Below are positions 454 to 23,728 of a stretch of 64,000 bases of DNA, piece after piece. Position numbers and translations under genes: made by a program. The notes beneath the pieces were generated by a model. It had not been told where the DNA came from. It worked only from the letters and a program-made list of their open reading frames with translations, and made no database searches. Origin of the DNA: Methanoregulaceae archaeon (lineage in GTDB: Bacteria > Armatimonadota > Fimbriimonadia > Fimbriimonadales > Fimbriimonadaceae); NCBI GenBank assembly GCA_020850325.1, contig JADZEW010000008.1, forward strand, positions 405,816 through 469,815, read 5' to 3'. How positions within the stretch are numbered: the stretch's first letter is position 1; every line of letters begins with the position of its first letter.

Positions 454-1078
454 ACGCAACGAGCGGCTGACTCGGCGAAGCGGCTCCAACTGCGGTCGGC
501 TCTTCAAGCAGCATGAGAAATGCATCAACGACTTGGGCGTCGAAGTGATGCCCGCGGTTCTCGAGGAGATGCTCGCGTGCGACGTCGGCTTCCCACGCGG
601 GCCGGTATGGCTGATCGGTTGTGAGGGAGTCCCATACGTCGACGACGGCGAAGATGCGCGCGGCGAGGGGGATCTGCTCTCCAGCGAGCCCGTGGGGATA
701 GCCGCGTCCGTCCCAACGCTCGTGGTGGTGGACTGGGATGTCGAGCGCCGAGCGAAGCATCTCGACCGGCGCGAGCAGTAATCGGGCAAAGGTGGGATGT
801 TGTTCGACGAGGGCGCGCTCCGCCGCTTCGAGTTTGCCTCGCTTGTTGACGATCGATTCCGGAACCCCAAGCATTCCGACGTCGTGAAGCAGTGCGCCGT
901 GGACGAGATTTCCCAACTGGCTTTCTGGATAACCCAGCTTCCGGGCTAGGTGAAGCGTCGTCTCAGCGACGCGATAGGGATGTCCATCCGACTCGCGTCC
1001 GGCAAGCTCAAGGGATCGCGCCCACGCTTGGATGGTTTGCTCAAGTCCGACGAACAACTGTTCCGCACTCGGTATCAC
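431..1078 (-). CDS. HD-GYP domain phosphohydrolase
   Basis: A 215-residue protein that is essentially one HD-GYP domain, the family that hydrolyses cyclic-di-GMP. The metal-binding pattern is present: His in GHPYRV (about residue 33), HD at 65-66, His at about 94, HHE at 118-120 and the GRGYP signature at 124-128. There is no signal peptide, membrane segment or receiver domain, so it is probably a soluble stand-alone enzyme. Its 3' end overlaps dapF by 23 bp, tail to tail. The substrate is inferred from the family; some HD-GYP proteins act on other cyclic dinucleotides or are inactive. Confidence 0.85.
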   Translation of the reverse strand: MIPSAEQLFVGLEQTIQAWARSLELAGRESDGHPYRVAETTLHLARKLGYPESQLGNLVHGALLHDVGMLGVPESIVNKRGKLEAAERALVEQHPTFARLLLAPVEMLRSALDIPVHHHERWDGRGYPHGLAGEQIPLAARIFAVVDVWDSLTTDQPYRPAWEADVAREHLLENRGHHFDAQVVDAFLMLLEEPTAVGAASPSQPLVAFTQTKRR

Positions 1079-20310: not shown

Positions 20311-21195
20311 ATGCGTTTCTTGGCACTCACTTTGGCCCTGACCCCGTTCGCGGCGGTCGCCCTCTGGCAAAACTCCTTCGACGACCACGTCAAGAAGCTT
20401 CAAGAGGCGCAAAGCCTCTCGCTGACCTTGACGACGTCGGTTATCGGCGGTACGACCGAGGATGTCCGGGTCACGCTTTCTAAGCCCAACCTGGTGAGGA
20501 TCGACAGCTCTGGGCAGCTGATCACCACGAATGGCAAGCAGATTTGGGTTTATGACAAGGCGGGCAAGACGTATGAGGAGTCGCCCATCGACGCCGGATC
20601 CCCCGCCTCCGTCTGGTTGCTAGACAATGCGTGGGTTTACACGGCGTTCTTCAACGACAAGATCGGTGACCAGATCGCCTCGGCGACCAAGGGCAGTTCG
20701 AGAAAGCTAAGAAACGTTGCGGTCACCGACTGGAACATCACCCGAAAGGACAAGGCGGTTCTGCAGGTTCAGATGGATGATCAGCTCGGAATCGTACGCG
20801 GCTTCCGCACCACGAAGGATAAGGCTGAGGTCTTCGTGTTTGCCAAGGAAATCAAGATCGGAGACGCGCCGATCGCCGAAGGCGAGTTCGCTTTCGTCGC
20901 CCCGGCTGGCGTGAACAAGAAGTCGAGCCCGGCGGCGGGTGCGGCATTGACCTTCGCCGACATCAAGCCGATCCTTGATGCGAACTGCATCGGTTGCCAC
21001 AGCGGAGGTGGCGCGAAGAAGGGCGTGGTTCTCTCGTCGTACCAGGAAGTTGCGAAGCATGTAACCCCCGGCGACCCGGACAACAGTCGAATGATCCGGC
21101 CGGTGAAGCGTGGCCAGATGCCCCCCGGACGCCCCCTGCCCGCCGATACGGTGGCGAAGCTGGAGGCGTGGGTGAAGGGCGGCGCCAAGCCCTAA
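20311..21195 (+). CDS. Secreted LolA/DUF2092-like domain fused to a c-type cytochrome domain
   Basis: A 294-residue exported protein. After a signal peptide (MRFLALTLALTPFAAVALW) come about 190 residues that resemble the LolA/DUF2092 beta-fold: LVRIDSSGQLITTNGKQIW and IWVYDKAGKTYEE. The last 85 residues are a planctomycete-type cytochrome c domain with one haem site NCIGCHSGG (Cys 226, Cys 229, His 230) and the MPPGRPLP methionine loop. ATG 20311 is chosen over 20290 because it starts the signal peptide. It overlaps terC by 4 bp tail to tail. Combining a lipid-carrier-like fold with haem c is unusual; the role is unknown. Confidence 0.78.
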   Translation: MRFLALTLALTPFAAVALWQNSFDDHVKKLQEAQSLSLTLTTSVIGGTTEDVRVTLSKPNLVRIDSSGQLITTNGKQIWVYDKAGKTYEESPIDAGSPASVWLLDNAWVYTAFFNDKIGDQIASATKGSSRKLRNVAVTDWNITRKDKAVLQVQMDDQLGIVRGFRTTKDKAEVFVFAKEIKIGDAPIAEGEFAFVAPAGVNKKSSPAAGAALTFADIKPILDANCIGCHSGGGAKKGVVLSSYQEVAKHVTPGDPDNSRMIRPVKRGQMPPGRPLPADTVAKLEAWVKGGAKP

Positions 21196-22190
21196 GGGAT
21201 CGCATGAGCTGGCTGCTTCGGCGGCCAGCGGAGCGATGCGTAGACCGAGGCACCGAGGATCGCGGCGATGATGATGAGCGACCAAGCGATCGGGAACTTG
21301 CTCCACTCGGGCACGACCACCTTTTCGAGGTAGGCGTAGATCATCTTGCCGCCGACGAACACGAGAATGGCCGCAAGTCCATAGCTCAGGTAGTGGAACA
21401 GGTTCATCAGGCCGGCGAGGGCAAAGAATAGCGCGCGCAGGCCGAGGATCGCGAACACGTTCGACGTGAACACGATGAATGGATCGGTGGTGATCGCGAA
21501 GATCGCGGGGATAGAGTCCACCGCGAAGATCACGTCGGTCAGCTCGATGAACAGCAGCGTGATGAAGAGCGGCGTCGCCCATAGTTTGCCGTCGATCCGC
21601 GTGAAGAACTTCTGGCCCTCGTAGCCCGGCGTGACTGGCATCAGCTTTCGGAAGGCGCGGATGACCGGATTGTTGTCCGGGTTCATTTGCTTGTCCTTCA
21701 TCTTCACCATCTTGATGCCGGTGATGATGAGGAAGGCCCCGAAGAGGATCATCGTCCACATAAAGCGCTCGAGGATGGTCGCCCCGACTGCGATGAAGAT
21801 GGACCGGAACACCAGCGCGCCCACGATGCCGTAGAACAGCACTCGGTGCTGGTACTTCTGAGGCACCTTGAAGTAGGCAAAGACCATCAAGAACACGAAG
21901 ATGTTGTCTACGGACAGGGCTTTCTCGATGAGGTAGCCGGCCAAGAAGGCGAGGCCCGCTTCCTTGGGCGTATAGGCACTGTCGGGGTAGATCTGATCCC
22001 AGAACGCGAAGATGCCTGCATTGAAAACCAGGGCCAACGCAATCCACACGGCACTCCAGGTGAGCGCCTCGCGGATGTTGATCACATGGGCTTCGCGGTG
22101 AAACACGCCCAAGTCGAGGGCGAGCATCACGAACACGAAGCCGAGGAACGATCCCCATATCCAAAGGGGTATGCCAGCAAGTTCAATCAT
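21192..22190 (-). CDS. terC: TerC family integral membrane protein, probable Mn2+ exporter
   Basis: A 332-residue protein with about nine membrane helices. TerC signatures are FLAGYLIEKALSVDNIFVF (Glu, Asp and Asn in the membrane) and the second-half FIELTDVIFAVDSIPAI, whose acidic residues bind metal. TerC/Alx proteins export Mn2+ or deliver it to secreted enzymes. It is the last gene of the apparent operon riboswitch-htpX-zinc ribbon-terC, and Mn2+ riboswitches commonly control terC genes. ATG 22190 (MIELAGIPLW) is preferred over starts further upstream, which would run through an intergenic hairpin. Confidence 0.92.
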   Translation of the reverse strand: MIELAGIPLWIWGSFLGFVFVMLALDLGVFHREAHVINIREALTWSAVWIALALVFNAGIFAFWDQIYPDSAYTPKEAGLAFLAGYLIEKALSVDNIFVFLMVFAYFKVPQKYQHRVLFYGIVGALVFRSIFIAVGATILERFMWTMILFGAFLIITGIKMVKMKDKQMNPDNNPVIRAFRKLMPVTPGYEGQKFFTRIDGKLWATPLFITLLFIELTDVIFAVDSIPAIFAITTDPFIVFTSNVFAILGLRALFFALAGLMNLFHYLSYGLAAILVFVGGKMIYAYLEKVVVPEWSKFPIAWSLIIIAAILGASVYASLRWPPKQPAHAIP

Positions 22191-22259
22191 TGTTTGTTGA
22201 GTTCGGACTAAGTTCGGGTTGGGTTGTACAGGCGGCGGCATTGCCGCCTCGAAATGTTG

Positions 22260-22285
22260 AGCGAGGGCACAACCCATCCCTCGCC
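22260..22285 (-). repeat. Short hairpin repeat between the zinc-ribbon gene and terC
   Basis: GCGAGGG and CCCTCGC pair around CACAACCCAT. A second stem, GGCGGC/GCCGCC, lies at about 22231-22248. The element matches the hairpins at 1795-1820 and 22683-22711 in loop and stem, with paired changes. No T-tract follows, so read-through into terC is plausible. Confidence 0.5.
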
Positions 22286-22304: not shown

Positions 22305-22622
22305 TTAGTCGAAGATCTCTTCGAACCAGCTCTTCTTCCGTTTCCACTGGCGACCATCCCAGTAGAAGTTCGGTCCGGGAGCGGGGCCAGGAGCCGTGGT
22401 CGGAGAATGATGAGCGCGATGGTCGACAGCTACGGGTTGCACCATCACCGGTTGGGGGGGAGGAGCTACGGCCGCGGATGGCGTTTGGTTCGAACGCTCG
22501 ATCAACTTGTCGAGTTCGCCTCGGTCGAGCCAGATACCGCGGCATTGCGGGCAGTAGTCGATTTCAATTCCTTGGCGCTCGGACATCACCAGGTCAGTAA
22601 CAGCACATGCAGGGCATTTCAT
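22305..22622 (-). CDS. TFIIB-type zinc-ribbon protein
   Basis: A 105-residue protein. The N terminus is a zf-TFIIB ribbon: MKCPAC, then after about 16 residues YCPQCRGIWLDRGEL, the family signature, giving four zinc cysteines. The remainder is Pro/Ala/His-rich and ends in a Trp/Lys-rich segment (FYWDGRQWKRKKSWFEEIFD). The function of this family is unknown. It sits between htpX and terC in the same direction, so it probably shares their Mn2+-dependent regulation; a metal-handling or adaptor role is an inference. ATG 22622 is chosen because it begins at the ribbon. Confidence 0.82.
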   Translation of the reverse strand: MKCPACAVTDLVMSERQGIEIDYCPQCRGIWLDRGELDKLIERSNQTPSAAVAPPPQPVMVQPVAVDHRAHHSPTTAPGPAPGPNFYWDGRQWKRKKSWFEEIFD

Positions 22623-22733: not shown

Positions 22734-23585
22734 TCAGCCGATGTTCAGCGCGCGAAGCTTGGCCACACGCTCTTCAATGGGCGGATGGGTCATGAACAGC
22801 TTGGTGAAGCCGCCCACGCCGCGGAACGGATTGACGATCGCCATATGGGCGGTCGAAGGGGTCATCGTGTGGGTCGGAATGGCATCCGCTCCTCGCTGAA
22901 GCTTCAGCAGCGCGTTAGCTAAGCCATCGCTGCGCCCTGCGATCTCCGCCCCCGACTTATCGGCCTCGAACTCACGAGCCCGAGAGATACCCATCTGGAT
23001 CATCATCGCCGCCAGCGGAGCGATCATCGCAATCACGAGCAGCACCAGCGGGTTGCTGCCGCCCTCTTCATCCGAGTTGCCGCCACCAAAGATCGCCGCA
23101 ATCTGCGCGAACTGGGCGAGGAACATGATGGCGCCGGCGATCGACGCGGTGATCGCCATCGTCAGTGTGTCGCGATGCTTGATGTGGGCGAGCTCGTGAG
23201 CGACGACGCCCTCGACCTCGGACTTGTTGAGGATGTCGAGCAGACCGGTGTTCACGGCGACGACGCCGTGCTTGGGGCTTCGCCCGGTGGCGAACGCATT
23301 GGGCGAAGGATCGTCAACCACATAGAGCGCAGGCACGGGAATCCCGGCCCGGGCCGCAAAGCGCTCGACCATCTCGTGGAGTTCCGGAGCCTCGCTCCGG
23401 GAGACCGGACGAGCCTTCGTCATCTTGATCACCAGCTTGTCGCTAAACCAAAAGGTGCCGATGTTCATCGCCAGCGCCAGACCGAGTGCGATCGTCGCCC
23501 CCGCGGCACCGCCGACCATCTGGCCGATCCACACCATAAAGGCGGTCAGCGCAACCAACAACACTCCAACTCTCAATGTGTTCAT
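22734..23585 (-). CDS. htpX: Membrane zinc metalloprotease HtpX (M48)
   Basis: A 283-residue HtpX. Two N-terminal membrane helices (about 5-50) precede the protease domain, which has the HExxH motif in VVAHELAHIKH and the third ligand in AREFEADKSGAEI; two more hydrophobic segments lie between them. HtpX degrades misfolded membrane proteins. ATG 23585 (MNTLRVGVLL) fits the family N terminus. Upstream is a manganese riboswitch and its terminator, within the untranslated leader. Zinc-ribbon and terC genes follow in the same direction. Confidence 0.95.
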   Translation of the reverse strand: MNTLRVGVLLVALTAFMVWIGQMVGGAAGATIALGLALAMNIGTFWFSDKLVIKMTKARPVSRSEAPELHEMVERFAARAGIPVPALYVVDDPSPNAFATGRSPKHGVVAVNTGLLDILNKSEVEGVVAHELAHIKHRDTLTMAITASIAGAIMFLAQFAQIAAIFGGGNSDEEGGSNPLVLLVIAMIAPLAAMMIQMGISRAREFEADKSGAEIAGRSDGLANALLKLQRGADAIPTHTMTPSTAHMAIVNPFRGVGGFTKLFMTHPPIEERVAKLRALNIG

Positions 23586-23608: not shown

Positions 23609-23648
23609 GGAAAAAGACCTCCGCTACGACAATCGCAGCGAAGGTCTT
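23609..23648 (-). terminator. Riboswitch-controlled terminator before htpX
   Basis: On the minus strand AAGACCTtCGCT pairs with AGCGgAGGTCTT around an 11-base loop, followed by TTTTT (complement of 23611-23615). The left arm of the stem includes the CCTTCG strand that closes the riboswitch P1 helix, so the two structures exclude each other. It ends about 25 bases before the htpX ATG. Confidence 0.88.
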
Positions 23649-23728
23649 GCGTTGGTGGCGAGGCCGGCCTTTCGGCGTATTGACGACCATCACCTCCCGC
23701 TGATTCGGCGGGCGCTACTCCCCTTCGG
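23639..23728 (-). promoter_or_regulatory. yybP-ykoY manganese riboswitch aptamer
   Basis: Read on the minus strand, the conserved pieces appear in order: CGAAGGGGAGTAGC (L1 metal-site loop, minus of 23714-23727), a CCCGC/GCGGG P2 stem, GTCGTCAATACG (minus of 23676-23687, the L3 side), a G/C-rich P3 with CCACC closing GGTG, and GCAAGACCTTCG (3' P1 strand). CGAAGG and CCTTCG close P1. This matches the known Mn2+-sensing class closely. Metal binding should hold P1 and free the downstream gene from the terminator, so it is probably an ON switch for htpX, the zinc ribbon and terC. Confidence 0.93.

Follow-up and report, generated by a model that had tools for sequence, protein, structure and literature searches.

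The window, the whole stretch of 64,000 nucleotides that was analysed, carries on its minus strand a riboswitch-like element followed by three genes in the same orientation (Table 1). The product of the first gene matches Peptidase_M48 with 141 bits (cut-off 20.3) and contains the HEXXH signature as HELAH; because its score against the NCBIfam HtpX equivalog NF002826, 339.7 bits, is below the curated cut-off of 369, we refer to it as HtpX-type. Its start codon is located 26 bases beyond the T tract of the terminator hairpin that ends the element. The third product matches TIGR03718 (R_switched_Alx) with 415.2 bits (cut-off 246.4), and the small zinc-ribbon protein encoded between the two may be a TerC partner. 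The genome to which the window belongs has three TerC genes. The search for a promoter in the window was negative; in the relatives described below, a TATAAT-like box is located at most 40 nt upstream of the element in 26 of 69 cases (4.3 expected).

Table 1. Features of the riboswitch-like element and of the genes behind it, with the evidence for each.
Feature	Positions	Strand	Basis
yybP-ykoY-type aptamer, compact (about 90 nt), three-way-junction form (P1, P2, P3; no P4)	23639..23727	-	sequence, fold, R1 match, covariation
P1.1 5' strand CGAAGG (switch helix; pairs with CCTTCG)	23722..23727	-	covariation, sequence
L1 5' side GGAGTA (3' side AAGA)	23716..23721	-	sequence
P1.2 GCG/CGC	within 23639-23727	-	sequence, fold
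P2 hairpin CCCGC/GCGGG	23696..23712	-	fold, covariation, sequence
P3 arm GGTGATGG/CCTCGCC, with loop L3 (TCGTCAATACG/CCGG) and GAAA-capped tip	23657..23694	-	fold, covariation, sequence
L3 adenosine, counterpart of Mn2+-contacting A41 in L. lactis	23681	-	motif comparison
AAGACCTTCG, L1 3' side plus P1.1 3' strand, common to the terminator	23639..23648	-	sequence
Terminator hairpin, 16 bp, loop of 3; T tract 23615-23611	23614..23648	-	sequence, fold
htpX-type M48 membrane protease gene, ATG 23585, HELAH motif	22734..23585	-	profile matches, sequence
Zn_ribbon_TFIIB small protein gene; ATG 22622 likely, GTG 22694 possible	22305..22622	-	profile match, sequence
terC/alx gene, likely Mn2+ exporter	21192..22277	-	TIGR03718, PF03741

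The sequence-only reading had assigned the element to the yybP-ykoY class from its conserved pieces on the minus strand. All of these were located, namely GGGGAGTAGC at 23723-23714, GTCGTCAATACG at 23687-23676 and AAGACCTTCG at 23648-23639, and CGAAGG at 23727-23722 closes P1 as claimed. The L1 motif (GGGGAGUAGC / AAGACC), closed by P1.1, is present in the window's element and kept in its relatives; L3, with the metal-contacting adenosine at 23681, is present on the P3 arm. The A at 23719 is probably, from its place in the motif, the counterpart of A10, which is extruded in the class and whose role is described in passages of PMC6754395. Only ACCAA separates P3 from P1.2, so that there is no P4 helix and the aptamer is a three-way junction, whereas the L. 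lactis and X. oryzae crystal structures are four-way junctions with P4. This linker is short in nearly all relatives and longer in L241 and L244, which are among the deeper ones. The 88-nt aptamer alone does not fold outstandingly well (z -1.3; 21 of 200 shuffles were as good), and the 121-nt piece folds better than its shuffles (z -4.4).

A DNA search found similar elements in 18 of 61 genomes. We then used R1, a covariance model made from nine such elements of relatives, with the window's own left out and with the structure set by hand. In the window's genome R1 finds one copy (G000:C8:429454-429542), with an E-value of 3.9e-17. Its 74 matches are spread over 62 of 151 genomes, the window's own included, and it matches in 44 of the 85 genomes of the family Fimbriimonadaceae. 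Its match to the E. coli mntP element is weak (12.2 bits, E 0.044), and it has none at E. coli alx. The alignment comprised 71 of the 76 loci (without L242, L243, L245, L247 and L248), and 93.4% of its 1449 pair cells are standard. There are 314 two-sided changes, where shuffling the columns gave 84.2 and sliding the structure gave 22-36, and they occur in 16 of the 22 pairs of the branched P1/P2/P3 structure. The alignment was fitted to the R1 structure, which favours that structure; however, a gap of this size, together with the changes in P2 and P3, is hard to obtain without a real structure. The adenosine of the 23681 motif is present in all 72 elements kept, with variation around it in L246 (CATCA for CGTCA) and in four elements with CGACA.

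The Rfam model RF00080 (release 15, cut-off 45 bits), to which the sequence-only reading had looked for a decision on class membership, had no match in the window, in the 501 bases around the element (E ≤ 5) or in the whole genome. The score is thus below the family threshold, but this does not refute the assignment, since the E. coli mntP control, at 41.6 bits, also stays under its own gathering score. A Paenibacillus element located before a TerC gene likewise had no match at E ≤ 1. Because these controls fail too, the negative result says little on membership, and RF00080 was dropped as arbiter. Across the 151 genomes the Rfam model gave three weak matches, none above the cut-off, where R1 matched in 62; in genome-scale controls on 14 named genomes it gave matches in 5 and 3, above the cut-off in 2. 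Judged from the E. coli mntP alignment, the L3 that is modelled in release 15 is the proteobacterial one (GUCAACAUACU). The current Rfam model misses compact, non-proteobacterial members of the class in several phyla, so that the Mn2+ regulons annotated there lack members.

The likeness to an aptamer could also be due to chance, and the element would then be a terminator only, attenuating constitutively. The RF00080 negative and the unremarkable fold of the aptamer alone fit such an account, but the R1 match of the window's element, the manganese-related genes downstream, and the fact that P1, P2 and P3 covary strongly outside the terminator leave it with hardly any credibility. The relatives, through the R1 matches, the covariation and the arm pairing described next, support both the class and the anatomy.

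The terminator hairpin has a folding energy of -25.7 kcal/mol, which was equalled in none of 200 shuffles. The five Us that had been ascribed to it are present at 23615-23611, but two of them sit inside the predicted stem. The claim that the last aptamer strand is common to aptamer and terminator held: AAGACCTTCG is the 5' arm of the terminator, and the sharing of the P1.1 3' strand was confirmed in the relatives. A downstream arm within 80 nt that pairs with the P1.1 3' strand at 7/8 positions or better was found in 65 of 69 elements (19.3 expected from shuffles). This count was made on 69 of the 76 loci, without L182 (off-contig), L243, L245, L247 and L248 (without the L1/L3 motifs), and L239 and L242 (AGACC end unreadable). 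It supersedes two earlier terminator counts, 52 of 69, in which the folding overran good hairpins, and 65 of 70 (16.25 expected), which used a loose criterion. In 14 elements P1.1 is altered from the usual GAAGG, and all 14 retain the arm at 7/8 or better; when the fit of the arm to the element's own strand is compared with its fit to the consensus strand, the own strand wins in 11, ties in two and loses in one. Among the elements with htpX as first gene, 23 of 24 reach 7/8 pairing, and L220 reaches 6. In another of the htpX-first loci, L237, the arm is far off. A scan of the relatives for terminators under a looser criterion found none in L237, L203, L235 and L236.

We determined the first recognised gene behind 71 of the 76 fetched loci (without L182, L243, L245, L247 and L248). 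It is htpX in 24, the zinc-ribbon gene in 23 and terC in 14, with other genes in the remaining ten. The Zn_ribbon_TFIIB gene is followed by terC behind 20 of the 71 elements. The htpX-first loci come from 24 genomes, the window's own included, which belong to five families of the phylum. The sequence-only reading had called a membrane protease in first position unusual for a class whose targets are mostly exporters; a usual target, TerC/Alx, is encoded by the third gene of the operon, and with 24 of 71 elements htpX in first position is not rare here. In 10 of the 24 htpX-first loci, the zinc ribbon and then terC follow; the other 14 are without terC in the scanned 2.7 kb, with some pieces stopping at a contig end. 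A P-type ATPase gene is next after htpX in L200, L202 and L205 (L200 and L205 judged by eye). The ten other first genes encode TerC (L223), a P-type-ATPase-like protein (L242), a Na/Ca exchanger (L240), a carbonic anhydrase (L203), a universal stress protein (L180) and an outer-membrane efflux protein (L229, with L232 and L236 similar by eye); L238 and L246 are the remaining loci of this group. In L238 (731-1111, plus strand), a ribosome hibernation-type gene (Ribosomal_S30AE) lies behind an R1 element with terminator.

The htpX gene also occurs without the element, which was found near none of 20 further htpX loci, a chosen subset of a longer list; a zinc-ribbon or terC gene is still beside htpX in three of these 20. 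A quick tree of 45 HtpX proteins, 25 with and 20 without the element, requires 9 label changes as compared to a shuffled mean of 15.0, and at least 5 changes are forced by well supported branches. The link between htpX and the element is thus clustered, yet was gained or lost several times. In genome G115, htpX (L257, about 700-807, plus strand) has a hairpin, CCTTCACCG...TGGTGGAGGTT, just upstream and no aptamer match. This looks like a terminator that remained after the aptamer was lost; the sister genome G142 has both.

Elements outside the phylum were sought among 83 of the 85 loci with R1 matches (E ≤ 0.01) among 117 pattern-derived loci; L159 and L168 (E about 0.008) were omitted. These loci had been picked, from the matches listed, with a pattern that demands short spacing, and frequencies among them carry little meaning, including the six of 83 loci in which htpX comes first. 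One of the six (L108) is labelled Geobacter sp. clean984. Here the aptamer comes after a promoter of the TTGACA/TATATT type; a terminator that shares AAGACCTTTA, a GGAGG, and then htpX and terC/alx follow it, and the HtpX protein passes the NF002826 cut-off of 369 with 411.2 bits. Four of the others are labelled Fimbriimonadaceae, Fimbriimonadales, Armatimonadetes or Chthonomonas, and the sixth is L142 (Bacterium HR16). Other first genes in the pattern-derived loci include those for P-type ATPases, TerC and GDT1 (L061).

Further membrane protein genes were seen behind elements of this collection. A flotillin gene (Band_7, Flot; L064:678-2240, minus strand) directly follows an R1 element in a Clostridiales MAG, and a gene for a membrane protease of the M50 (site-2) type that carries CBS domains (L161:1434-2543, plus strand) does so in a Chloroflexota MAG. 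In Anaerolineae and other Chloroflexi, the element is followed by DedA-like (VTT domain) genes (L087:7647-8000, plus strand; L086, L097, L118, L139 and L150); L087 was profile-scanned and falls below the Pfam cut-off, and the others were called by eye. We had considered the loss of P4 as a novelty of the window's lineage and rejected this: short forms also occur in Anaerolineae, Clostridia and Bacteriovoracaceae, the groups among the matches listed in a scan whose pattern required short spacing, and a three-way-junction member is published.

The distribution of first genes bears on whether htpX is a meaningful target at all. The switch could be the same with terC/alx as its sole meaningful target, htpX being a passenger inserted behind the riboswitch. 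This would agree with terC, alone or after the zinc ribbon, as direct target of 34 of the 71 elements, and with the terC gene that takes third place in 10 of the 24 loci led by htpX. We think it rather unlikely, as the other 14 show no terC within the scanned 2.7 kb (with the reservation on contig ends given above) and three have a P-type ATPase next. In addition, htpX is first in five families and in Geobacter, and the HtpX tree demands repeated gain or loss.

Comparison with known systems places the element within what is described for the class. Passages of PMC6754395 identify the invariable Mn2+-contacting adenosine of the L. lactis yybP-ykoY (yoaB) riboswitch as the first A in UCA41AU43UC, and the L3 in the window, with UCAAUAC, is of the same UCAAU type (PMC6754395, PMC11087558). 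In the class mechanism, as set out in passages of these two papers, Mn2+ stabilises P1.1 in its competition with a terminator that overlaps it; yoaB is switched ON with Mn2+ in this way, and a counterpart is predicted here. Unlike the window's element, yoaB is a four-way junction with P4 and has another target gene. The E. coli mntP element resembles that of the window in the GGGGAGUAGC and GGCGAGACC sides of the aptamer, but its L3 is the proteobacterial one (GUCAACAUACU), it has a P4-like hairpin, and no htpX follows it. According to a passage of the review PMC9495176, the aptamer of S. pneumoniae mgtA forms a three-way junction, as in the window, and binds Ca2+ in addition to Mn2+; its target, a cation ATPase, is a different one. 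Because this form is published, the three-way junction is not new, and another cation is possible.

An element that responds mainly to a cation other than Mn2+, or to a further one beside it (Ca2+, Cd2+), would also suit the P-type ATPase and Na/Ca-exchanger genes among the targets. We regard this as improbable, since the Mn2+-contacting adenosine is retained and the targets are dominated by, or include, TerC/Alx and GDT1-type genes.

We consider it highly probable that the element is a compact yybP-ykoY member, predicted to pass transcription into the HtpX-type protease/zinc-ribbon/TerC-Alx operon only at high Mn2+. This reading builds on the sequence, conservation, covariation, mutually exclusive pairing partners and gene order observed here, with the presumed ligand, ON direction and fold carried over from the class. 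At low Mn2+, AAGACCTTCG would pair with the downstream arm, the 16-bp terminator would form, and RNA polymerase would stop before htpX. At high Mn2+, the ion would bridge L1 and L3 and stabilise P1.1, which would withhold AAGACCTTCG from the terminator and allow the operon to be transcribed. Through such Mn2+-activated antitermination, high Mn2+ would induce the exporter together with a protease for membrane quality control. At the translocon, where TerC beside it may supply or remove Mn2+, HtpX would likely degrade faulty membrane or secreted proteins, those that are mis-metalated or stalled. Alternatively, the protease might remove an Mn2+ importer; an Nramp importer was not found in the window's genome.

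The riboswitch class, the three-way junction and TerC as a target are already known. For htpX as a riboswitch target, no link was found in the literature searched, which covered sources other than the target lists of the key papers on the class. Because the element directly precedes htpX in the window, in 23 related genomes and in one Geobacter, the HtpX-type protease likely takes part in the response to manganese. To our knowledge, what HtpX does physiologically is not settled for most bacteria.

Among the literature examined by passages, PMC10550928 (He et al. 2023) is alone in bringing HtpX and manganese together. In B. subtilis, as passages of that paper describe, the TerC proteins MeeF and MeeY act in the metalation of exported proteins, and FtsH is essential once MeeF/MeeY are absent; HtpX co-immunoprecipitates with MeeF (Table 1 of that paper), and FloT and FloA are also among the membrane proteins that co-purify in the MeeF list. 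TerC and HtpX thus occur together in both systems, through physical association at the secretosome there and through joint placement behind a riboswitch here, and the gene order is independent support for a TerC-HtpX partnership.

We tentatively suggest a broader role, which we see as possible but far less secure than the switch itself: Mn2+ riboswitches may command, beyond exporters, a membrane quality-control arm in which HtpX partners TerC at the translocon and clears mis-metalated or jammed proteins at Mn2+ excess. The pairing would have been rebuilt repeatedly, with htpX here and in Geobacter and with a flotillin or M50 gene in other phyla. The recurrent placement of htpX behind the Mn2+ switch, together with the co-purification of HtpX and TerC reported in passages of PMC10550928, would give HtpX a concrete job, quality control during the Mn2+ loading of exported proteins.
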